Source of the DNA: Dehalococcoidia bacterium
GTDB taxonomy: Bacteria; Chloroflexota; Dehalococcoidia; SZUA-161; SpSt-899
Assembly: GCA_028711995.1 (NCBI GenBank)
Contig: JAQTRE010000014.1
Coordinates: 1 to 42,234, forward strand
DNA length: 42,234 bases
Direction of reading: 5' to 3'
The notes under the pieces are model-generated. The model was not told the DNA's origin. It saw nothing but the letters and a program-made list of their open reading frames with translations, and did no database searches. The first letter of the stretch is position 1. Every line of letters begins with the position of its first letter. A program made the position numbers and the translations under genes. Shown in pieces: positions 3,079 to 26,282 of the stretch.

Positions 3079-5526
3079 CTATGGAAAGATAACCTCTCTG
3101 CCTTTTTCCAGATTATACTCCGCTCTGGTGATAATTTCACCCTGCATGGTCGGATTCAGGTCCACGAAATACGCCGTATATCCGGATACCCTGACCAGCA
3201 AGTCTGGATAGTTGGCCGGATTGTTTCTGGCGTCTTCCAGAGTCTCCCGGCTGATGATATTGAACTGAACCTGCAGGCCGCCTGTCCGCATATAGGCTTC
3301 CACGCTTTGGGCAAATTTGGTGATGGTGAGCTCTCGGTTTTCAGATGGCGTGTATTTTAGATTCAAGGCGTGACCGTTGGTGATTTTGGTGTGATCCAGA
3401 CCGGCTACGAAATTCAGGCAGGGCGTCAGCTCCGGCGCCGACCCCGAAACCGGCGTGATACCGCTGGGCAGAGGCTCTCCCTTCACCCGGCCGCTTGGAA
3501 GCGCGCCGGTGAGCAGCGCAAATCCGGCGTGGTAGGTCATCGTCCAGTAGCCAACGGTGTATTTGCCGCCCCGATAGTTCTGTTTGCTCTGAAACTCCCG
3601 GTATAGAAAGTCCAGTATATAATCAGCATTCTCTTTGGCCAACCGGCTGTCGGTGCCGAATTTCTCCGTTGAGGTCTTCACCATCTTGTGAAGTTTCTGA
3701 TGCGAACCTTCCCAGTTCTCGTTGATTGCCTTGACCATCTCCGAAAGCGTTACGGACTTCTTATTGAACACGAACTCCTGAATGGCAGTGAGAGAATCCA
3801 CCACTTCCGAAAGCCCGATGATGGCTACCCCGGAAGAATTATAGGTAGCCCCTCCTTCGACCACATCTTTGTCATTTTGAAGACATCCTTCCGTCATGGC
3901 GGAGAGGAGGGGAGTGGGATGAATCATCTGATGCACTTTGCCAAAATCGTTGTTCAGCGTCACCGCCTGCTCGATGAGCCAGCCCATCTGAATCTCGAAA
4001 GCCTGCTTGAATTCCTCAAAAGACGTTATCACATCGAGCGCCGGGGTGACCGGGCCGATCTGCTCATCTTCCGTCAACCGGTGTTTCCCCTGGAAGAGCG
4101 CCATCTCCAGAGGCGAGGTGAGATTCATCAAAATGGCGCCGGAGTGGCCGAAAGTGCGCCCGTTGCTGGCGGGCTCCACGCAGCCGACCGAAGCATAGTC
4201 CCGCGCATGCTCCAGGGTTACCCCCTGCCCCATCAGAGATTCGATCACCGAGACATCGTTGTGAAAGCATGGCGTTGCCCCGGTATTGACATTGACTTCG
4301 CACAGGCGTCGCAAATACTCCGGCGGATTGACCCCCGGATAGTATCGGCAGTTGACGTTCGGATCGCGCAGCCCGAGAATCTCGGTGGCTCTCAGCATCA
4401 CATAGGTGAGATCATTTACAGCATCGTTACCCTGCATATCCACACCACCCAGGGTAATGGCCTGATTGGATCCTGTCCCCCCGAAAAGCGCTTCGCCCGT
4501 CTCTGGAACCACCGGAACGTGATCGGCGATCTTCAACCAGAAACAGCCTATCAGTTCAACAGCCCCGGCAGGGGTCAGGTTTCCGCTATCGATATCGTTC
4601 CGATACAGCTCATAGAGAGTCTGGTCCAACCTGCCCAGGCTCAACCCCACGTTGGCATTCTCCTGATGAAGGGCGATCCAGCAGACCCAAACGGCATTCA
4701 GGGCCTCCCGGAAAGTTTGCGGTTTCTCTCCCGGGACTCTGGCGCAAATATCGCGCAGGGCTTCCAACTCCCGTTTCCGGCTGGCATCGATCTCCGCTTC
4801 GGCCATCCGACCGGCTTCCCGGCTCAAATTCTGAGCATAGGAGAGAACGCCATCGATGGCCATCCGGACCGCCTGATAGAAGTCGGTCTTCTGCCGATTC
4901 TCCACCGCACTCCCCAGAGCCTTCTCTTTCGCCTCGGCCTCGTTTCTCACCGCCTTCAACCCCCGCTCAACAACCGCGGAGAAATCGGGGATGGTATGAG
5001 AGATACAGACGGCCTTGCTCGCCACAAAGAAGACGATCCGCTCCATCACTTGGTGGCAAACCGGATTGTGGTGAATCTTCCGGGAAACCTCGGCCACCGT
5101 CCGGTCCATCCAGTAGGGAAATATCTCGAAATTCAGCTCCTTGATTTCCTCTCTGGTGATTCGGTAAGGGTTCTTTTTTCTCCTGTGAATGGTCTCCAGT
5201 TCCGGCCAGATGGAGAGGGCATTGAGAAAATCGGGGTAAAGCACCACGCCAACGGGTCTGGTAGTAGTGGTGCCGGCAAGCAAATTTTCATCTGGGATCA
5301 GCGGACGCTTGTTTTCCAGCATGTACTTGAGGCGCTTGCCAGCCCGCAATTCCGGCGAATCCTCCGGATTATCCACAGATTTCATGTAGCGCGTCATCCA
5401 CCGGGGGAGTTCGGTGCAGATTTCTGGATTGCTGGCGAAGTGTCGCTGGCGCAGCTCCTTCAGCCGCGGGAGATTATCCAGCAGAATTCCCCTCAGGCTC
5501 AGATCATTCAGCGTGGAATGGCTCAT
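3079..5526 (-). CDS. glycyl radical enzyme, dehydratase/eliminase-type (PFL superfamily)
   Basis: This 815-residue enzyme belongs to the pyruvate formate-lyase superfamily. The catalytic thiyl site is Cys449 in SVGCVEPAS. The GCVEP form, with Glu451 two residues on, is typical of glycerol/propanediol dehydratases, choline TMA-lyase and hydroxyproline dehydratase, not of PFL, which has adjacent cysteines. The radical site is Gly782 in RVSGYTAYFVDLNP, followed by QGEIITR as in all members. Upstream are HTIPDFSAVVERG and the GGVDMQGNDAVNDLTY block. The substrate cannot be read from this. The start is the ATG at 5526, 5 nt after AGAGGAA; an in-frame extension to 5607 would overlap the upstream gene and is rejected. 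Its activase lies two genes downstream. The metallophosphoesterase ends only 26 nt upstream. Confidence 0.95.
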   Translation of the reverse strand: MSHSTLNDLSLRGILLDNLPRLKELRQRHFASNPEICTELPRWMTRYMKSVDNPEDSPELRAGKRLKYMLENKRPLIPDENLLAGTTTTRPVGVVLYPDFLNALSIWPELETIHRRKKNPYRITREEIKELNFEIFPYWMDRTVAEVSRKIHHNPVCHQVMERIVFFVASKAVCISHTIPDFSAVVERGLKAVRNEAEAKEKALGSAVENRQKTDFYQAVRMAIDGVLSYAQNLSREAGRMAEAEIDASRKRELEALRDICARVPGEKPQTFREALNAVWVCWIALHQENANVGLSLGRLDQTLYELYRNDIDSGNLTPAGAVELIGCFWLKIADHVPVVPETGEALFGGTGSNQAITLGGVDMQGNDAVNDLTYVMLRATEILGLRDPNVNCRYYPGVNPPEYLRRLCEVNVNTGATPCFHNDVSVIESLMGQGVTLEHARDYASVGCVEPASNGRTFGHSGAILMNLTSPLEMALFQGKHRLTEDEQIGPVTPALDVITSFEEFKQAFEIQMGWLIEQAVTLNNDFGKVHQMIHPTPLLSAMTEGCLQNDKDVVEGGATYNSSGVAIIGLSEVVDSLTAIQEFVFNKKSVTLSEMVKAINENWEGSHQKLHKMVKTSTEKFGTDSRLAKENADYILDFLYREFQSKQNYRGGKYTVGYWTMTYHAGFALLTGALPSGRVKGEPLPSGITPVSGSAPELTPCLNFVAGLDHTKITNGHALNLKYTPSENRELTITKFAQSVEAYMRTGGLQVQFNIISRETLEDARNNPANYPDLLVRVSGYTAYFVDLNPTMQGEIITRAEYNLEKGREVIFP

Positions 5527-6335: not shown

Positions 6336-6349
6336 CTTATCCTCCTTCG

Positions 6350-6442
6350 GGGACGAGTCAAGGATCGTCCCTACATACCGTTGTCGGTCATTCTCGCGTA
6401 AGGCGGGAATCCATCCATGACGGGCGACCACAAGAGTCGCCC
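6350..6442. repeat. cluster of small palindromic repeats
   Basis: Three repeat fragments lie head to tail between two cluster genes. GGGACGA pairs with TCGTCCC at 6350-6371. A segment resembling the common CATTCTCGCG...GCGGGAATCC repeat follows. GGGCGAC then pairs with GTCGCCC at 6422-6442. The last hairpin recurs at 18628-18648, and variants occur at 19822-19841 and 33058-33079. Confidence 0.7.
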
Positions 6443-6458
6443 CTATAAACACTGACAA

Positions 6459-8570
6459 CTACGTGTTATCCAGGTCGAATCCTATTGCCAGCCTTCTCCG
6501 ATGCCACTCCTCATCCATCAACAAAAAGTAACCGAAGTTGCGATATTGATATTCGGAAGGGTCCTTATCCGGATCATACTTTTTGAGCAGTTCGGTGGCA
6601 TACATGAGCTCCCCTAAATAAAGGCCATCGGCAATCTGGACCAGCTCGTCCAGGCAGTAGTTATCGGGCGGAAAGGTTCGGAGATTGGGCCACCGATAGT
6701 TGAACTGGAACACCTGCTTTCCGCGGTTCTCAGCATTGACGGAGGCGGCCTGCCTTCCGATGAAGAAGAAGCTCTTCAGATCGATGCCGAACGCCTTTTT
6801 CTCTTCCGGGGCGGGATCCTCAGTCCAGAGACCGGCCACTTTCATCGCCTTTCCCACAAGCCTCTTTGGAGTGGTGCGGAGAGAATAGGTATTTGCTCCC
6901 CAGAATGTCGGCGATTCGCCGGTCTCGTGGTCTTCGGTGATCTCCCGTAACTGCTGGGGATCAATCCCCTCGAACGTCTTGCCTGTCCATGGAGTAAACA
7001 GCCGGGCAAGCCCCCAGGCCATATTGAGGGTGTTCAACTTGAAAATACCCAGAAGCCCCTCGCTGTGAAAAGACACAAGCGCTCCCCTGAAGAATCCCTT
7101 CAGCTCTTTGGGGCAGACGCCCCGGTTGAATATCTCGCTCAATTTGTCAAAGTAGGGCGAGTCCGTATGCGGGTGCTCTCTGAGCTCATCGGAATAGGCC
7201 TTCAGGAGACCAAGGATGGTTCTCTTATCCTTCATTTCTTCTTGTATCTCAGCGAGCAGGCGGTCATTGCAGTTACCGTCAATCGGATCGGCAAAAGTGA
7301 ACGTGGTGAATTTTTGCGGCAAGGGGTCGACCTTCGGTCTTTGAGCATACGGGATTCCTATGTAAGGGAAGACGATCTGTGCCTCTGTCTTCCACCTTTC
7401 GTCCATCAACAGGAAATAGCCGAAGTGTTCGTAGTCGTACTCCGAAACCGGCAGCCTGGGATCGTATCCGCCAAACAGCCGATTGGTGGCAAAGAGCAAC
7501 TGTCCCAGGTAGAGGCCTTCAGCGATCTCCACGATCTCATCGATAAGGTAACTCAAGGGCGGCAGGTTGTGCAATTTCGGCCAGCGATAGTTGAGCTGAA
7601 AGACTTCCCGCTGGCTTTGGCGATAGACCGAAGGAGCCCGCCGGGCGATGAAATGTCCCCCCTCTTTCTCATAGCCATACCGCGTCCGCTCCCCTTCCTT
7701 CGCCTCTTCCAGCCGCATCCAGAATGCCAGGAACGTCAGGCTCACTGCATTTAAAGGCGACTGGTCGATCTCGTTGAAATGATTGATCCCGATGAAGGTG
7801 GGAACGTCGCCTTTCTCATACTCCCCGCTCATCCCGGCCAGTTCATCGGTGCCAGCCTCCCGGAAACTCTTTCCCACCCAGGGGGGAACCTTTCCCAGTG
7901 AAGTGCTCCAGATGAACCCCAGCACATTGCCGAAATCTGCCCATATGCCTTTTTTATCGCCCGTTCTCAGGCCAATGGTAATCCCATAGTGATGCCCTTC
8001 AACCCGGTCCGGGGTTTTGCCGCACTGGAAGAGTTTGGCCAGCTTGGCAAAAGGCGGGGCGTTGTTATCGATCTCCCCTTCCAGTTCCTTGAGGTAGGAT
8101 TGCATCAGCTCAAGGACGGAGGATTTGCCCTCCACGTCACTCTTGATTGCTGCTGCCAGAGGATCGTCCGGAGGCTGTGTCTCCAGGCAGGTAAGCCTCT
8201 TGAGTTCATCGGGGACGGTTCTCGGCGCCCCTGTCCCTGCATCCAATCCCGCTCTGAGGAGAGTCTTGCGGTCAATCTCGACCACAAAATGCTCGTCTTT
8301 CCCGGATTGCCAGCGCACGGCGTCTTGGGTCGTCAAAAGAAGCTTCCCCGCCCGGGTCTCGATCTTCAAGTAGATGTCCGGTCGACTGTCAAAGAACTGG
8401 TTGAAGGCCTTTCCTTCATAGGCAAGCTGAAAATTGCCGTCTCCATCCGTGGTGGCTTTTCCCAGAAGATCATCGAAAAGAAGGTCTTTATCGAAAGCGA
8501 TTACAGCGAGCCCGGCTATTCCCCGTTTGCTCTCCAGTTCCCTCACCTTTCCCCATATTTTGAAGCTCAT
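6459..8570 (-). CDS. unknown protein: carboxypeptidase-regulatory-like domain plus a tandem duplicated domain
   Basis: I do not recognise the family of this 703-residue protein. Residues 3 to about 105 look like a transthyretin/carboxypeptidase-regulatory-like beta domain (IWGKVRELESKRGIAGL, then GDGNFQLAY and IYLKIE). The rest is two copies of a domain of roughly 265 residues with motifs about 300 apart: 137-400 and 437-700. Aligned landmarks are SYLKELE/AYSDELR, KLAKLF/KLSEIF, TPDRVEGH/CPKELKGF, VPPWVGKSF/FTPWTGKTF, FQLNYRWPKL/FQFNYRWPNL, DEIVEIAEGLYLGQL/DELVQIADGLYLGEL and FGYFLLMDE in both. No signal peptide or membrane helix is evident. The ATG at 8570 follows GGAGG at 8 nt. It is the first gene upstream of the metallophosphoesterase and glycyl radical enzyme, with a 123-nt repeat-filled gap. 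Confidence 0.8.
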   Translation of the reverse strand: MSFKIWGKVRELESKRGIAGLAVIAFDKDLLFDDLLGKATTDGDGNFQLAYEGKAFNQFFDSRPDIYLKIETRAGKLLLTTQDAVRWQSGKDEHFVVEIDRKTLLRAGLDAGTGAPRTVPDELKRLTCLETQPPDDPLAAAIKSDVEGKSSVLELMQSYLKELEGEIDNNAPPFAKLAKLFQCGKTPDRVEGHHYGITIGLRTGDKKGIWADFGNVLGFIWSTSLGKVPPWVGKSFREAGTDELAGMSGEYEKGDVPTFIGINHFNEIDQSPLNAVSLTFLAFWMRLEEAKEGERTRYGYEKEGGHFIARRAPSVYRQSQREVFQLNYRWPKLHNLPPLSYLIDEIVEIAEGLYLGQLLFATNRLFGGYDPRLPVSEYDYEHFGYFLLMDERWKTEAQIVFPYIGIPYAQRPKVDPLPQKFTTFTFADPIDGNCNDRLLAEIQEEMKDKRTILGLLKAYSDELREHPHTDSPYFDKLSEIFNRGVCPKELKGFFRGALVSFHSEGLLGIFKLNTLNMAWGLARLFTPWTGKTFEGIDPQQLREITEDHETGESPTFWGANTYSLRTTPKRLVGKAMKVAGLWTEDPAPEEKKAFGIDLKSFFFIGRQAASVNAENRGKQVFQFNYRWPNLRTFPPDNYCLDELVQIADGLYLGELMYATELLKKYDPDKDPSEYQYRNFGYFLLMDEEWHRRRLAIGFDLDNT

Positions 8571-9022
8571 ATTGTTAACCTCCAGTCTCCTTGCAAGGGC
8601 TTGATCAGTCGTGCCCCTACCTCCCTCTTCAATAGGAGTCTGCACGGGGCATCTCCAATGCCTGCTCTCTTTTCAATGGTGGCTTCTGATTATGGCATGA
8701 GATGCATAACGCTGGCCATGAGATACAAAGCAGTATGCGCCGTCGCCCCCCCCCGATGCACTTGTTGGACGGCGTGGCGGTTGCTCATCTTTCAGTGCCG
8801 TGCCAACACGATCCCTTCAGCCAGCCGATCAGACCCCTCCTCTTTTCTATTGGATTCCGGAAACTCCCATTGTTCAAAACCATGAAGCTCAGGAAAATGC
8901 TCCTAACCACCTTGCGATAGGACAGCGGGGATGACCGTTTTTTTCATCTTATCTCAGTTTTCTCTTGGGTGGTAGGCGTGGACGTAGGCGTTATTCATGG
9001 GAACTCTCGAAAGTAGGCCGCC
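8571..9022. other. gene-poor gap upstream of the duplicated-domain gene
   Basis: No convincing coding region is visible on either strand in these 452 bases. The short frames lack Shine-Dalgarno sites and look like shadows. The right part is the 3' flank of mazF. A run of nine C at 8746-8754 is the only striking low-complexity feature. The promoter of the duplicated-domain gene should lie here, but no good -35/-10 pair could be picked out. Confidence 0.5.
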
Positions 9023-20151: not shown

Positions 20152-21495
20152 CTAAAGTATGGGCAGATATCGATTCAATTCGTAGTCGGTCACCTGCACG
20201 CGGAACTTATCCGCCTCCACCCTCTTGTTGGCGATGAACTGCTTAAAAACGTGATCGCCGAGGGCCTTGCGAACCACATCGCTCTTTTCAGTGAGATTAA
20301 TGGCTTCGGTCAGAGAGCCGGGCAATGTTCCGATTCCTCGGATGGTCTTCTCTTCCTCGCTCATCTCATACACGCTTTCCTCAACCGGATCAGGCAATGG
20401 ATATTTCTTTTCAATCCCTTCCAGTCCGGCGGCCAGCATCACGCTAAAAGCCAGATACGGGTTGCATGCCGGATCCGGCGATCTGAATTCGATGCGGGTG
20501 GCTTTTTCTCTTCCGGGCTTGTATTCCGGCACTCTGACCAGGTCGGATCGATTGTGTCGCGCCCACGAGAGATATACCGGCGCTTCATATCCCGGAACCA
20601 GCCGCTTATAGGAATTGATCCATTGGTTGCAGATGGATGTGATCTCCGGGGCATGCTTGAGCAATCCGGCCATATAGTATCGGGCGATATCGGAGAGATA
20701 GTATTCACCGTCTTTGTCAAAGAAGGCATTCTTACTGCCTTTAAACAGGGACTGGTGTACGTGCATGCCGCTGCCATTGACGCCGAACATCGGCTTGGGC
20801 ATAAAGGTGGCGTACACCCCATGGCGCATCGCTGTCTGTTTGACTATGAGCCGATATGTCATCACATTGTCGGCCATCGCCAAGGCATCGGTGTATCGCA
20901 TATCTATTTCGTGCTGGCTGGGAGCCACTTCGTGATGGGCGTATTCCACCCCGATCCCCATTTCCTCCAGGGCAAGGACCGTATCTCTACGGAAGTCTGT
21001 AGCCGCATCCAGAGGAATCAGATCGAAATATCCTCCCTGATCCAGCACCTCGGTTCCTTTTGAATCCTTGAAATAGAAATATTCCAGCTCCGGGCCGACG
21101 TAAAAGGTATACCCCAGATCCGCAGCCCTTTTCAGGTTTCTCTTGAGCACGTATCTCGGATCTCCTTCAAAAGGTTCTCCGGTCGGCCTCACCACATCGC
21201 AGAACATCCGGCCCATGGCCCGATGCTCCTTGGGCGTCCACGGGAGCAGGCGGAAGGTATCGGGATCGGGCAGGGCGATCATGTCGCTTTCATCGATGCG
21301 CACAAAACCTTCGATGGACGAGCCGTCGAATCCCATTCCCTCCGTGAGGGCGGTCTCCAGCTCTTCAACGGTAATGGCGAAGCTCTTGAGGAATCCCAAG
21401 ATATCAGTGAACCATAATCGGATGAACTTTACATCGTGATCCTTGGCCATCTTGAGCACATACTCTTTGCCTTCGTCTCTGGTTCTGTTTGCCAT
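20152..21495 (-). CDS. glnA: glutamine synthetase, type I-alpha
   Basis: The product makes glutamine from glutamate, ammonia and ATP. Its 447 residues match the shorter GSI-alpha class of Bacillus. Signature blocks are FTDILGFLKSFAI, FDGSSIEGFVRIDESDM, the metal-binding GPELEYF, HHEVAPSQHEID, KPMFGVNGSGMHVHQSL and NSYKRLVPGYEAP. The adenylylation-loop NLYDLP motif of GSI-beta is absent. The arginine in GFVRIDESD, used in Bacillus for feedback inhibition, is kept. An AAGGAGGT ribosome site lies 5 nt before the ATG. GTTAC repeats with 11-bp spacing sit 84-99 nt upstream, matching those before both amt genes. Confidence 0.97.
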   Translation of the reverse strand: MANRTRDEGKEYVLKMAKDHDVKFIRLWFTDILGFLKSFAITVEELETALTEGMGFDGSSIEGFVRIDESDMIALPDPDTFRLLPWTPKEHRAMGRMFCDVVRPTGEPFEGDPRYVLKRNLKRAADLGYTFYVGPELEYFYFKDSKGTEVLDQGGYFDLIPLDAATDFRRDTVLALEEMGIGVEYAHHEVAPSQHEIDMRYTDALAMADNVMTYRLIVKQTAMRHGVYATFMPKPMFGVNGSGMHVHQSLFKGSKNAFFDKDGEYYLSDIARYYMAGLLKHAPEITSICNQWINSYKRLVPGYEAPVYLSWARHNRSDLVRVPEYKPGREKATRIEFRSPDPACNPYLAFSVMLAAGLEGIEKKYPLPDPVEESVYEMSEEEKTIRGIGTLPGSLTEAINLTEKSDVVRKALGDHVFKQFIANKRVEADKFRVQVTDYELNRYLPIL

Positions 21496-21562: not shown

Positions 21563-21594
21563 ATGTTAGCAGCCGATTGTTACAGACATATTAC
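21563..21594 (-). promoter_or_regulatory. GlnR-like box and -10 of glnA
   Basis: Half-sites GTTAC (21579-21583) and ATTAC (21590-21594) on the plus strand are 11 bp apart, i.e. GTAAT-N6-GTAAC towards glnA. A -10-like TAACAT lies at 21568-21563, exactly 10 bp beyond the proximal half-site, the same geometry as at amt1. The box would cover the -35, as for an activator of the OmpR family. Confidence 0.55.
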
Positions 21595-21615
21595 AGCCTC
21601 CCTCGATGAAATCCT

Positions 21616-21954
21616 TTAGACGGCATTGTCACCGTCATCCCCGTTTCTGATGCGTATGGCGTTCTCCACGGGGAGGACAAATATCTTTCCATCCCCTTTT
21701 TCTCCGGTCCTGGCTTTGCTGATGATCGTGCGTATGGCCTGGCCTACATCACCCTCGACCACCACCACCTCGAGCTTGATCTTGGGCAAAAGGTCTACCT
21801 GGTATGTCCCGGCCCTCCATTGCAACGTGATGCCCAATTGTTTGCCGCGGCCGCTGACTTCCGTCACCGTCAATCCTCTGATGCCCACCTCGGCCAGAGC
21901 GGCTCTGACGGCCTCCAGTTTCTCCGGTCGAATGATTGCCTCTATCTTTTTCAT
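21616..21954 (-). CDS. glnB: PII nitrogen regulatory protein
   Basis: This 112-residue trimeric signal protein senses 2-oxoglutarate and ATP/ADP and controls Amt transporters and other targets. MKKIEAIIRPEKLEAVRAAL is the usual N-terminus. The T-loop reads GRGKQLGITLQWRAGTYQVD, so the uridylylation position Tyr51 is present while position 46, usually Tyr, is Trp. The B-loop region is KARTGEKGDGKIFV and the C-loop IRNGDDG. The start overlaps the stop of amt1 by 4 nt (ATGA), so the two are translationally coupled, the classic amt-glnB pairing for direct transporter gating. Confidence 0.96.
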   Translation of the reverse strand: MKKIEAIIRPEKLEAVRAALAEVGIRGLTVTEVSGRGKQLGITLQWRAGTYQVDLLPKIKLEVVVVEGDVGQAIRTIISKARTGEKGDGKIFVLPVENAIRIRNGDDGDNAV

Positions 21955-23180
21955 AGTATTCCTCCGTAAGCTCTCTCCCCGTGCTGTGAAATATCCAGGC
22001 CGACCATCTCTTCGTCCGCGTTAACTCTGAGCCCAATGGTGAGATCGACAAGCTTGGCCAGTCCCCAGGTAGCAGCAAAGGCAAATGCTCCGACCGCCGC
22101 AACACCGGCGGCCTGCTTGACTAATTGTGTGCCTCCGCCCCAGATCAATCCATCCGATATTGCCGGGTTGACTGCTGCGCTGGCAAAGACACCTACCATC
22201 AAGGTTCCCCAAATTCCTCCCATGCCATGAACGGCCCATACGTCCAGCGACTCATCGACTCCTTTTCCCCGCCTCCAGAGCATACAGTAGTAGCCAATTA
22301 CTGAAGCGCCTATTCCGATGATCACCCCGACAAGCGGGTCCACGAATCCCGCGGCGGGAGTTACCGCAGCTAGGCCCGCAACAGCTCCGGTGGCAATGCC
22401 AAGGGCAGAGGGACGACGATCTCGCCATGCGAGAAGCATCCAGGTTACCGCACCGGCGGCTCCCCCGGCAAAAGTGGCCACGAAGGCACTGGCCGCTAGT
22501 CCGTTTGCACCTAATGCGCTCCCCGCGTTGAATCCGAACCAGCCAAACCAGAGAAGGCCTGTCCCCAGCACAACCATAGGAATGTTGTGAGGCTCCATCG
22601 GGTCGCCTTCCTTGAATCCCTTCCGGTGGCCCAATAACAATGCCAGGGCCAGTGCCGACATTCCGGCGTTCACGTGAACCACAAGGCCCCCGGCGAAATC
22701 AAGCGTGCCCAACTCTGCCAGCCAACCCCCTTGTCCCCAAACCCAGTGGGCAATCGGGCAATACACCAGAGTAAACCACAGGACGGCCAGAACCAGAAAA
22801 GCGCTGAACTTGGTCCGCTCTACTATACCCCCGGTCCAGAGGGCCACGGTGATGATGGCGAACATGCCCTGAAATATCATGAAAGCCAGATGCGGCACTG
22901 TGGTCGCATAAATAGCCGAGGGCATCTGCCCCACATCTCTCAGCCCCAGAAAATCCAGTTTCCCTATTGCGCCGCCGAGGTCCGGCGCAAAGCTCAAACT
23001 ATACCCGTAAAACAACCAGAGAATTCCGATCACTCCCAGAAGGGCAAAGCTCATCATCAATGTCGATAGTACATTTTTGCGCCTTACCATCCCCCCATAG
23101 AACAAAGCCAATCCCGGTATCATCAGTAACACCAGGGCTGCTGATATGAGAACCCAGGCGGTATCGCCGGCATTTACCAT
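21951..23180 (-). CDS. amt: ammonium transporter Amt (copy 1)
   Basis: This is a trimeric ammonium channel of 409 residues with eleven predicted helices. The N-terminus NAGDTAWVLISAALVLLMIPGLALFYGGMVRRKN is typical. The pore twin histidines are visible in VVHVNAGMSALALALLLG and VWAVHGMGGIWG. The ATG at 23180 has AAGGGGG 9 nt upstream; a 15-residue extension lacks support. It overlaps glnB by 4 nt. It is about 63% or more alike by eye to the second copy upstream, so the pair looks like a tandem duplication. A promoter with TATAAA and an 11-bp-phased GTTAC box lies just upstream, so nitrogen limitation probably switches it on. Confidence 0.96.
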   Translation of the reverse strand: MVNAGDTAWVLISAALVLLMIPGLALFYGGMVRRKNVLSTLMMSFALLGVIGILWLFYGYSLSFAPDLGGAIGKLDFLGLRDVGQMPSAIYATTVPHLAFMIFQGMFAIITVALWTGGIVERTKFSAFLVLAVLWFTLVYCPIAHWVWGQGGWLAELGTLDFAGGLVVHVNAGMSALALALLLGHRKGFKEGDPMEPHNIPMVVLGTGLLWFGWFGFNAGSALGANGLAASAFVATFAGGAAGAVTWMLLAWRDRRPSALGIATGAVAGLAAVTPAAGFVDPLVGVIIGIGASVIGYYCMLWRRGKGVDESLDVWAVHGMGGIWGTLMVGVFASAAVNPAISDGLIWGGGTQLVKQAAGVAAVGAFAFAATWGLAKLVDLTIGLRVNADEEMVGLDISQHGERAYGGIL

Positions 23181-23226
23181 CTGCTTGTGCCCCCTTCCCT
23201 TTCTCTCCGGAGGCGATGGTATCAAT

Positions 23227-23269
23227 TTTATATTTCAGGTGCGTTACGGGATTGTTACAATTGTGTTAC
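23227..23269 (-). promoter_or_regulatory. GlnR-like box and promoter of amt1
   Basis: Plus-strand half-sites ATTTC (23232), GTTAC (23243), GTTAC (23254) and GTTAC (23265) have an exact 11-bp period. Read towards amt1 this is GTAAC-N6-GTAAC-N6-GTAAC-N6-GAAAT. The -10 TATAAA at 23232-23227 lies 10 bp beyond the last GTAAC, so the box covers the -35, which is otherwise poor. GTnAC/GAAAC at 11 bp is the published layout of actinobacterial GlnR boxes. Confidence 0.65.
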
Positions 23270-23321
23270 ACCCGTTGGTTTAGCAGATCGACCATCGCAG
23301 GGGTTCGGCCTCAATCCCATT

Positions 23322-24515
23322 TTAATGAAGCCCTCCCCCGTAGGCTCTCTCGCCGTGCTGTGATATATCTAGGCCCACCACTTCTTCTTCATCCTTGACA
23401 CGCAAGCCCATGGTCACGTCAACCAGTTTCCCCAATATTATGGTAGAGACAAAAGCAAATGCTGCCACGGCACTTACTGCGGCGATTTGCTTGACGAATT
23501 GCCCGCCGTTTCCCCACAGCAACCCATCCACTCCACCCACTGCAGCATTAGCGAATATCCCTGTTGCCAGCGCTCCCCACACACCTCCCATGCCGTGAAC
23601 TGCCCACACATCCAGCGATTCATCAATGCCCCTTTTCGTTCTCCACAGGATGCAGTAATATCCGATGGCAGAAGCGACCGCACCGATAGGAATGGCAGCA
23701 ATCGGGTTAACAAAACCAGCAGCAGGAGTGATGGCCACCAGTCCTGCCACGGCACCGCTGGCAACACCGAGCGCAGAGGGTCGACGATCATGCCAGGCCA
23801 GCAGCATCCAGGCTACCGCACCAGCCGCAGCCGAGAGATTGGTGGCCACAAAGGCACTGGCCGCTTGTCCGTTGGCTGAGAGCGAACTCCCGGCATTGAA
23901 GCCAAACCACCCGAACCACAGAATGCCGGCTCCGATGATCACCAGCGGTATGTTGCCGGGCTCCATAGGGACCTTCTCCCGGAATCCTTTCCGCGGGCGA
24001 AGGAGTAGCGCCAAAGCCAGCGCCGTCATTCCGGCATTAACGTGAACCACCGTACCGCCTGCAAAGTCGAGAGCGCCGAGATTGGCCAGCCAGCCTCCCT
24101 TGCCCCATACCCAATGGGCAACCGGACAATATACCAGGGTGAACCACAATATGGCGAAAACCAGGAAGGAGCTGAACTTGATACGCTCAACAACGCCGCC
24201 TGTCCAGAGGGCTACGGTGATCACAGCAAACATGGCTTGAAAAGCCATAAAAGCCAGATGCGGCACCGTGGTGGCATAGGTGCCCGATGGTTCCGGTCCC
24301 ACGTCCATTAATCCGATGAAATTCAGTTCTCCGATAAATCCACCCAGATCATTCCCGAAACTCAAGCTGTAGCCATAAAGCGCCCACAGGCAGCCGATAA
24401 CGCCGAGAAGAACAAAGCTCATCATCAGAGTGGAAAGCACGTTCTTGCTTCTGACCATTCCTCCATAGAACAGCGCCAGGCCGGGTGTCATCAGCATGAC
24501 CATGGCTGTCGACAT
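23322..24515 (-). CDS. amt: ammonium transporter Amt (copy 2), start probably frameshifted
   Basis: This is a second Amt channel, 397 residues from the internal ATG at 24515, with twin pore histidines in VVHVNAGMTALALALLL and VWAVHGMGGVWG. The true N-terminus seems to be upstream: the frame continues to read NAGDTVWVLMSTA, matching copy 1, but has no start codon. An ATG with GGAGG 6 nt before it sits at 24549 and is out of frame by one base. Deleting one A in the AAA run at 24543-24541 would give M-N-N-A-G-D-T and join them. Either the gene is broken at its start or the base is an error. Without the upstream part half of the first helix is missing. A GlnR-like box lies upstream. Confidence 0.88.
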   Translation of the reverse strand: MSTAMVMLMTPGLALFYGGMVRSKNVLSTLMMSFVLLGVIGCLWALYGYSLSFGNDLGGFIGELNFIGLMDVGPEPSGTYATTVPHLAFMAFQAMFAVITVALWTGGVVERIKFSSFLVFAILWFTLVYCPVAHWVWGKGGWLANLGALDFAGGTVVHVNAGMTALALALLLRPRKGFREKVPMEPGNIPLVIIGAGILWFGWFGFNAGSSLSANGQAASAFVATNLSAAAGAVAWMLLAWHDRRPSALGVASGAVAGLVAITPAAGFVNPIAAIPIGAVASAIGYYCILWRTKRGIDESLDVWAVHGMGGVWGALATGIFANAAVGGVDGLLWGNGGQFVKQIAAVSAVAAFAFVSTIILGKLVDVTMGLRVKDEEEVVGLDISQHGERAYGGGLH

Positions 24516-24589
24516 AAGAACCCATACAGTATCACCTGCGTTTATTCATGGTTAACCTCCCCCACTGGTTCAAAGGATATCTTCTGCGT

Positions 24590-24627
24590 ATTTCAAGCAA
24601 ATTAAGCTTGTGTTACAGCCATGTTTC
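24590..24627 (-). promoter_or_regulatory. GlnR-like box of amt2
   Basis: Plus-strand half-sites ATTTC (24590), ATTAA (24601), GTTAC (24612) and GTTTC (24623) again have an 11-bp period. Read towards amt2 this is GAAAC-N6-GTAAC-N6-TTAAT-N6-GAAAT. The outer GAAAC and inner GTAAC are perfect GlnR half-sites. No clear -10 was found. Confidence 0.6.
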
Positions 24628-24926: not shown

Positions 24927-26282
24927 ATGATGAACAAAACGGTCGATGATTTCCACATGCGGCGCTTGCGCCAGCTGAAACTGGTCATCATTCTGGTAGC
25001 CTCTATCGTTTTTGGAGCGCTCGAGTTCTACCACACTCTGGGAGGGCGTCCATTAGTCGAGAACCCCATTCTATATTGGTTGGTTGGAATGGGTATTACC
25101 CTTGTGGTCATCGAAGGCGCTTTTCGGGCGGTTATGAAGCTACAGGAGCGCCTGCAGAAGGAAGTCTATGAGCGCAGGCGGTCTGAGGAAGCGCTGAGAT
25201 CGGAAACGGATAAGTTGCGGATTCTGGCAGATGGATTAGCTGGTATGGGAATCGGCATCGACATCGTCGGGCGCGACCACAGGATACTGGATCAGAATAG
25301 GATTCTGTCGGAGAGATTCGGCGATTGCATCGGGGGAGTTTGCTATGAAAGATACTTCGGACGCAAGGGTCCATGCGATCCTTGCCTTGTGATCAAAGCG
25401 TTGGAATCGGGAACGGTGCAGAGCTCGGAGTTTTTGAGTCCCGATGGAAGAACCTATGAGTCGCTTTCGGCCCCGCTTGCTGATTCACGGCTGAACGGAC
25501 ATGCTGACAGGGCTATTCAGGTTGTCAGGGATATTACCGAGCGCAAAAAGTCGGAGGAACAGTTGGCACGCGCCAAGCAACTGGAAAAACTTGATGAGAT
25601 GAGGTCGGTTTTGCTGGCCAGCGTATCCCACGAGCTTCGCACCCCGCTGACCTCTATTAAGGGTTTGGCCAGCACCCTGATTCAGCCGGATGTGAAGTGG
25701 GACCATGATACCGAGCAGGATTTTCTGCGCACTATTGCCCAAGAGTCTGACAGGCTGGCACAAATTGTGAGCGACCTGATAGACATGACCCAGTTGGAAG
25801 CAGGCATTATGAGGGTCAGAAAGGCTCCGGTTAGAATAACCGTCATCGTAGATCATCTCAAGAACCAGTTGGAGTCTTTGGCGTGCAACCATCAGCTTGA
25901 GGTCCATATTCCGCCGGATTTGCCGATAGTCGATGGTGACGAGGTTCGCATTGGCCAGGTGATCATCAATCTCGTCTCAAACGCGACAGCTTATTCGGAT
26001 AAAGGAACCACAATCACTCTGGCGGCCAAAACGATAGACAATGAGATCGTTGTTAGTGTTGCTGACGAGGGTGTAGGTATACCCGATGACCACCTGACTA
26101 AGGTTTTCGATCGATTCTATCGGATGGAAGAAGGGGCCAAACGCAGGCGTGGCGGTTCCGGTCTGGGTTTATCTATCAGCAAAGGCATTACGGAGGCCCA
26201 TGGGGGCAGAATCTGGGTTCAGAGCCAGCCCGGTCAAGGCGCTACTTTCAGCTTCAGTTTGCCGGTAATTGGCGGCGCATAA
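24927..26282 (+). CDS. membrane-bound PAS sensor histidine kinase
   Basis: The order of parts is two membrane helices (about 17-36 and 46-70) with almost no periplasmic loop, a coiled coil (70-98), a PAS domain (about 95-205), a HisKA dimer domain with His235 (SHELRTPLTSIKGL), and an HATPase domain with Asn352 (NLVSNA), D380EGVGIP and GGSGLGLSI at 409-417. With no real extracellular domain, the signal is probably intracellular or within the membrane. The PAS carries four cysteines at 134, 139, 150 and 153 (FGDCIGGVCYERYFGRKGPCDPC), a possible metal or redox site. No response regulator gene is adjacent. It is divergent from amt2, so a nitrogen role is possible but unproven. The start lacks a strong ribosome site; ATG 24930 is an alternative. 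Confidence 0.92.
   Translation: MMNKTVDDFHMRRLRQLKLVIILVASIVFGALEFYHTLGGRPLVENPILYWLVGMGITLVVIEGAFRAVMKLQERLQKEVYERRRSEEALRSETDKLRILADGLAGMGIGIDIVGRDHRILDQNRILSERFGDCIGGVCYERYFGRKGPCDPCLVIKALESGTVQSSEFLSPDGRTYESLSAPLADSRLNGHADRAIQVVRDITERKKSEEQLARAKQLEKLDEMRSVLLASVSHELRTPLTSIKGLASTLIQPDVKWDHDTEQDFLRTIAQESDRLAQIVSDLIDMTQLEAGIMRVRKAPVRITVIVDHLKNQLESLACNHQLEVHIPPDLPIVDGDEVRIGQVIINLVSNATAYSDKGTTITLAAKTIDNEIVVSVADEGVGIPDDHLTKVFDRFYRMEEGAKRRRGGSGLGLSISKGITEAHGGRIWVQSQPGQGATFSFSLPVIGGA

Follow-up and report, generated by a model that had tools for sequence, protein, structure and literature searches.

Putative GlnR-type control of ammonium transporter and glutamine synthetase genes in Dehalococcoidia

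In a Dehalococcoidia bacterium, direct repeats of GTAAC/GAAAC half-sites precede both ammonium transporter genes and the glutamine synthetase gene, and a GlnR-like protein is encoded on another contig of the same genome. We consider it highly probable (roughly 0.87) that these boxes are the operators of this GlnR-family regulator, which would activate amt2, amt1-glnB and glnA in the class II manner under nitrogen limitation. GlnR-type control of the nitrogen genes had been proposed in the initial annotation of this DNA, and the specificity of the boxes, their conservation and the family of the regulator all argue for it.

The window, the whole stretch of 42,234 nucleotides that was analysed, corresponds to contig C14; the genome comprises 240 contigs totalling 3.32 Mb and is 96% complete. 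Its nearest named records are Dehalococcoidia of the phylum Chloroflexota, in agreement with the earlier view that the host is not an actinobacterium. On the minus strand the gene order is amt2, amt1, glnB, glnA and then carA. The half-sites reported earlier at 11-bp steps before amt1, amt2 and glnA were read directly from the sequence, where the GTTAC/GTTTC words are GTAAC/GAAAC half-sites with an 11-bp period on the transcribed (minus) strand (Table 1). The distance of 10 bp between a half-site and a -10-like hexamer, described for amt1 and glnA, is likewise present in both, and amt2 shares it. The genome of the window has two amt genes only, with a box before both, and glnB and amt1 probably form one transcript. 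In amt2, the ATG at 24549-24547 follows a good Shine-Dalgarno sequence (GGGGGAGG), yet its frame closes at once, and the conserved Amt2 protein (INAGDTVWVL) resumes one base off the ATG frame. The cause of this anomaly (24541-24549) is an error in the assembly or else a frame shift at the start.

Table 1. Features of the nitrogen locus in the window and of the regulator contig C109
Feature	Position	Strand	Remarks
amt2 box, GlnR-type	24627-24590	-	GAAAC-N6-GTAAC-N6-TTAAT-N6-GAAAT (four half-sites, one weak); same place before amt in relatives
amt2 -10 hexamer TATCCT	24579-24574	-	10 nt past last half-site
amt2, ammonium transporter	23322..24549	-	PF00909/TIGR00836; conserved body from about 24541
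amt1 box, GlnR-type	23269-23232	-	GTAAC-N6-GTAAC-N6-GTAAC-N6-GAAAT (four half-sites)
amt1 -10 hexamer TACCAT	23221-23216	-	10 nt past last half-site
amt1, ammonium transporter	21951..23180	-	start ATG 23180; MVNAGDTAWV
glnB, PII signal protein	21616..21954	-	overlaps amt1 end
glnA box, GlnR-type	21594-21579	-	GTAAT-N6-GTAAC (two half-sites)
glnA -10 hexamer TAACAT	21568-21563	-	10 nt past last half-site
glnA, type I glutamine synthetase	20152..21495	-	followed by carA
Histidine kinase, PAS-type, PhoR/PnpS-like	24927-26282	+	divergent from amt2
GlnR-like OmpR-family gene	G000:C109:8663-9355	-	GlnR-like DNA-binding domain
NrpR genes (NRD1_2 + HTH_12; PF01995)	C109 (L032, G000): 3695-4693, 6343-7413, 7638-8645	-, -, +	surround glnR and the genes of glutamate dehydrogenase and glutamate synthase

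The window and the genome were scanned with a pattern of four half-sites at 11 bp, allowing up to three mismatches. Matches in the window were confined to the amt1 and amt2 sites, with a mean of 0.01 in dinucleotide shuffles. Across the 3.3 Mb genome, the same pattern gave three matches, namely amt1, amt2 and one at C62, and the reversed control gave one. A search for two half-sites followed by 9-11 nt and TANNNT returned five matches genome-wide; the spacer was exactly 10 nt at glnA and amt1 only and 11 nt at the other three.

For relatives, an unbiased search of 60 genomes, this one included, with the four-half-site pattern and at most two mismatches gave 62 matches, compared with 8 for the reversed pattern. 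The 44 ORFs downstream of these matches comprise 26 Amt and 7 GlnA proteins, and the remainder includes two molybdopterin proteins (nitrate-reductase-like, NasA-like), a nitrite/sulphite reductase, a UrtA-like binding protein and one OmpR-family protein that is itself GlnR-like. Judged by these annotations, the genes downstream of the boxes are the content of a nitrogen regulon. Random placement, which the initial annotation had named as a refutation, is not what is seen, and the motif stands at nitrogen genes genome-wide and class-wide. Five named Dehalococcoidia loci carry boxes before amt or glnA. In relatives, boxes precede genes for molybdopterin (nitrate-reductase-like) and UrtA-like proteins and for nitrite reductase (L068, L071, L073 and L046 in G045, G040 and G055). 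Another genome encodes a second, more diverged GlnR-like protein (L040:1501-2242, G026:C28) with a box in its own promoter, which suggests autoregulation in that organism.

When 63 amt upstream regions of the same genomes were scanned gene by gene with four half-sites at periods 7-16, a period-11 box (up to three mismatches) was present in 35, while periods 7-10 and 12-16 gave 0/63 and the other strand gave 0/63 at any period. The motif is conserved in relatives that keep amt-glnB-glnA, as had been expected of a genuine regulon. TANNNT lies exactly 10 nt past the box in 27 of 38 amt regions (up to four mismatches), and any other offset occurs at most three times. The average amt site reads GTAACAnnnnn GTAACnnnnnn GTAACnnnnnn GAAACAnnnnnnnnn TAnnnT. 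Random repeats as the source of the boxes are ruled out by the shuffles, the reversed pattern and the period control.

The window itself lacks a regulator gene, as first noted, and the GlnR-like one is on contig C109. Among the 24 OmpR-family proteins of the genome, this one has a GlnR-like DNA-binding domain, which is 56% identical to that of Streptomyces GlnR (GGDRTVDVHIRRLRSK versus GGTRTVDVHVRRLRAK). The profile of the C-terminal OmpR-type winged helix (PF00486) matched it with 93.6 bits (cut-off 26.2), and its best PDB match was 8hih, GlnR in the M. tuberculosis activation complex (GlnR-TAC), with GlnR 8hig also matched. A structure model of the protein (mean pLDDT 89, pTM 0.58) has the OmpR fold and a GlnR DNA-binding domain at 49% identity, and the model alone does not separate GlnR from other OmpR proteins.

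The receiver of the C109 protein is weak, with 35 bits versus 102 for an ordinary paralogue, and the N-terminal family GlnR_1st (Pfam PF21695) scored 22.5 bits, below the cut-off of 27; two relatives scored 34.9 and 30.5. Among 28 aligned GlnR-like members, 13 retain the acceptor Asp and 9 the active-site Lys. From the alignment, the receiver of the family is atypical, with a phosphorylation pocket that varies across members. The C109 protein keeps D57, S87 and K106 in its own receiver, so it may still be phosphorylated. No histidine kinase was found among the scanned C109 ORFs, and the relatives' glnR clusters hold no homologue of the window kinase. By gene content, the glnR of C109 is an orphan without a cognate kinase alongside.

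In a tree of 42 GlnR and GlnR-like rows against 12 OmpR rows, the former are a separate branch with support of 100/99 and with Streptomyces GlnR inside. The OmpR-family candidate called for at the outset thus exists and groups with bona fide GlnR; in a 104-row tree, the branch of GlnR and GlnR-like proteins had an SH-aLRT of 100. Its members are Dehalococcoidia proteins, GlnRs of Streptomyces and other actinobacteria, and a few MAG proteins of Omnitrophota, Latescibacterota and Armatimonadota (L126, L129, L118, L122); these scattered members may mean that GlnR is more widespread, or some of them may stem from errors in binning. Within the GlnR tree, the actinobacterial GlnRs form their own branch (92/85) with the Dehalococcoidia sequences outside, and no firm order emerges at the deeper nodes. 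A recent transfer is accordingly not favoured, and the C109 protein does not seem to be a recent import from known actinobacteria. Within Chloroflexota, strong GlnR-like matches (at least 217 bits) were restricted to the own class; GlnR across the whole phylum is unsupported, with the best out-of-class match of 187 bits at the level of ordinary OmpR paralogues. The Dehalococcoidia GlnR adds a new, probably old branch to a system already known. We found no earlier report of GlnR in Chloroflexota or Dehalococcoides in the literature searched, with subscription papers largely outside the search.

The regulator gene and its box are also linked in position. The order glnR-box-amt-glnB-glnA is found in a genome of the same family (G003) and in G008 and G056, the order nrpR-glnR-box-amt-amt-glnB-glnA in G014, and glnR-amt-glnB-box-glnA in three closed genomes of 1.4-1.5 Mb. 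These three and five others of the same family have 20-37 reductive dehalogenases each, and the closed genomes with such numbers all carry a GlnR-like gene, most beside amt-glnB or glnA. We take 20-37 reductive dehalogenases per genome to mark Dehalococcoides and Dehalogenimonas, and on this ground the GlnR family apparently occurs in both. An amt box was present in 29 of 32 genomes with a GlnR-like gene and in 4 of 11 without (Fisher p=0.0009). The few exceptions include incomplete genomes and genomes with boxes at other genes; amt boxes without a clear GlnR-like match were seen in G019 and G041, both incomplete, and in G047, which is 97% complete.

The sites, their phasing to the -10 hexamer, their conservation, the gene targets, the regulator family and its linkage to the sites are matters of observation, and from them we infer binding by the C109 protein, activation and a low-nitrogen signal. 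Two to four direct-repeat half-sites (GTAAC...GAAAC) at 11 bp would line up GlnR subunits on one face of the DNA, where they could bind cooperatively in the 11-bp register. With 10 bp between the last half-site and the -10 hexamer, the assembly would cover the -35 region, where half-sites 3 and 4 stand on either side of the -35 position and a good -35 was not seen. GlnR would then make up for the poor -35 through contacts with RNA polymerase and with sigma, by way of which the polymerase would be recruited, as in class II activation by actinobacterial GlnR, and nitrogen limitation would switch on amt2, amt1-glnB and glnA.

The boxes could be bound by the GlnR-like protein with a different outcome, in that it mainly represses or obeys a kinase, such as the histidine kinase of the window, as an ordinary two-component regulator. 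The three residues kept in its own receiver and the position of a PhoR/PnpS-like kinase gene divergent from amt2 are in line with this reading. However, we consider it unlikely, considering that the acceptor Asp and Lys vary across the family, that a similar kinase is absent from the relatives' glnR clusters, and that a box over a missing -35 fits activation. It is less probable still that another OmpR-family response regulator, PhoP/RegX3-like or another paralogue, binds the boxes instead of the GlnR-like protein. While the genome has two dozen OmpR-family proteins, direct repeats at 11 bp are a feature of the family in general, and the DNA-binding domain of one paralogue (L001) is 53% identical to the GlnR-like one, the boxes stand at nitrogen genes, the GlnR-like gene adjoins the box in many relatives and co-occurs with it, and the GlnR-like protein alone groups with GlnR.

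NrpR, an archaeal-type nitrogen repressor, could also be considered as the box binder, as it has several copies in the genome near glnR, glutamate dehydrogenase (GDH) and glutamate synthase. Of the 60 genomes searched, 28 encode NrpR (PF01995 + HTH_12), in part within the clusters that hold glnR. However, a box was present in 15 of 19 genomes with NrpR and in 18 of 24 without (p=1.0), and archaeal NrpR operators are inverted repeats, unlike the box with its direct repeats in phase with the -10 hexamer. NrpR was rejected as the box binder on the co-occurrence, and we regard this reading as very improbable.

The closest known system is the actinobacterial GlnR regulon, and the literature found describes GlnR as the master regulator for nitrogen in actinomycetes (PMC10704036, PMC3087709). 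In Streptomyces, the GlnR site is gTnAc-n6-GaAAc, repeated (PMC10704036), and at the amtB promoter the a2 site occupies the -35, next to a b2 site that is essential (PMC5826061). The Dehalococcoidia system is similar to that of Streptomyces coelicolor and Mycobacterium in its OmpR-type winged helix, atypical receiver and lack of a partner kinase, in its gTnAc-n6-GaAAc half-sites at 11 bp with two or more boxes and a site over the -35, and in its targets (amt-glnB(K), glnA, and nitrate, nitrite and urea genes). It differs in belonging to another phylum and a separate branch of the tree with a strongly diverged receiver sequence, in a glnR that often adjoins the amt-glnB-glnA cluster, in a box with GTAAC preferred at half-sites 1 to 3 and GAAAC at the fourth alone, and in the coexistence with NrpR. 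The NrpR of methanogenic archaea is also a nitrogen regulator, with copies here beside glnR, GDH and glutamate synthase, but it is of a different protein family with a different operator and fails to account for the boxes. GlnR/TnrA of Bacillus shares only the name and the nitrogen targets, being of the unrelated MerR family with a palindromic site.

With the protein family, DNA code, promoter geometry and targets of GlnR intact in another phylum, the system seems to be older or more mobile than thought. The Dehalococcoidia class includes organohalide-respiring bacteria used in groundwater clean-up, and its GlnR provides a concrete, testable model of nitrogen control, which could be addressed in culture because the closed genomes rich in reductive dehalogenases carry a GlnR-like gene.

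NrpR, known from methanogens, has been recorded in Dehalococcoides, with transfer from archaea as its likely origin (PMC1852104). Besides the three genes on C109, a fourth, partial NrpR gene is on C164. On C109 no GlnR box was found, whether before glnR itself, before the genes of GDH and glutamate synthase or elsewhere, so the two regulators may have separate tasks. It is conceivable, although we hold this only tentatively, that Dehalococcoidia have a two-layer circuit of mixed origin, in which an ancient bacterial GlnR would activate the genes of transport and glutamine synthesis, while NrpR repressors of archaeal type, encoded in the same clusters, would control the genes of glutamate dehydrogenase and glutamate synthase as well as those of the regulators. 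In that case GlnR would be older than the actinobacteria and would not be their hallmark. The stretch separating the divergent nrpR genes contains palindrome-like words (CGGCAATATTACCG), which may be NrpR operators.
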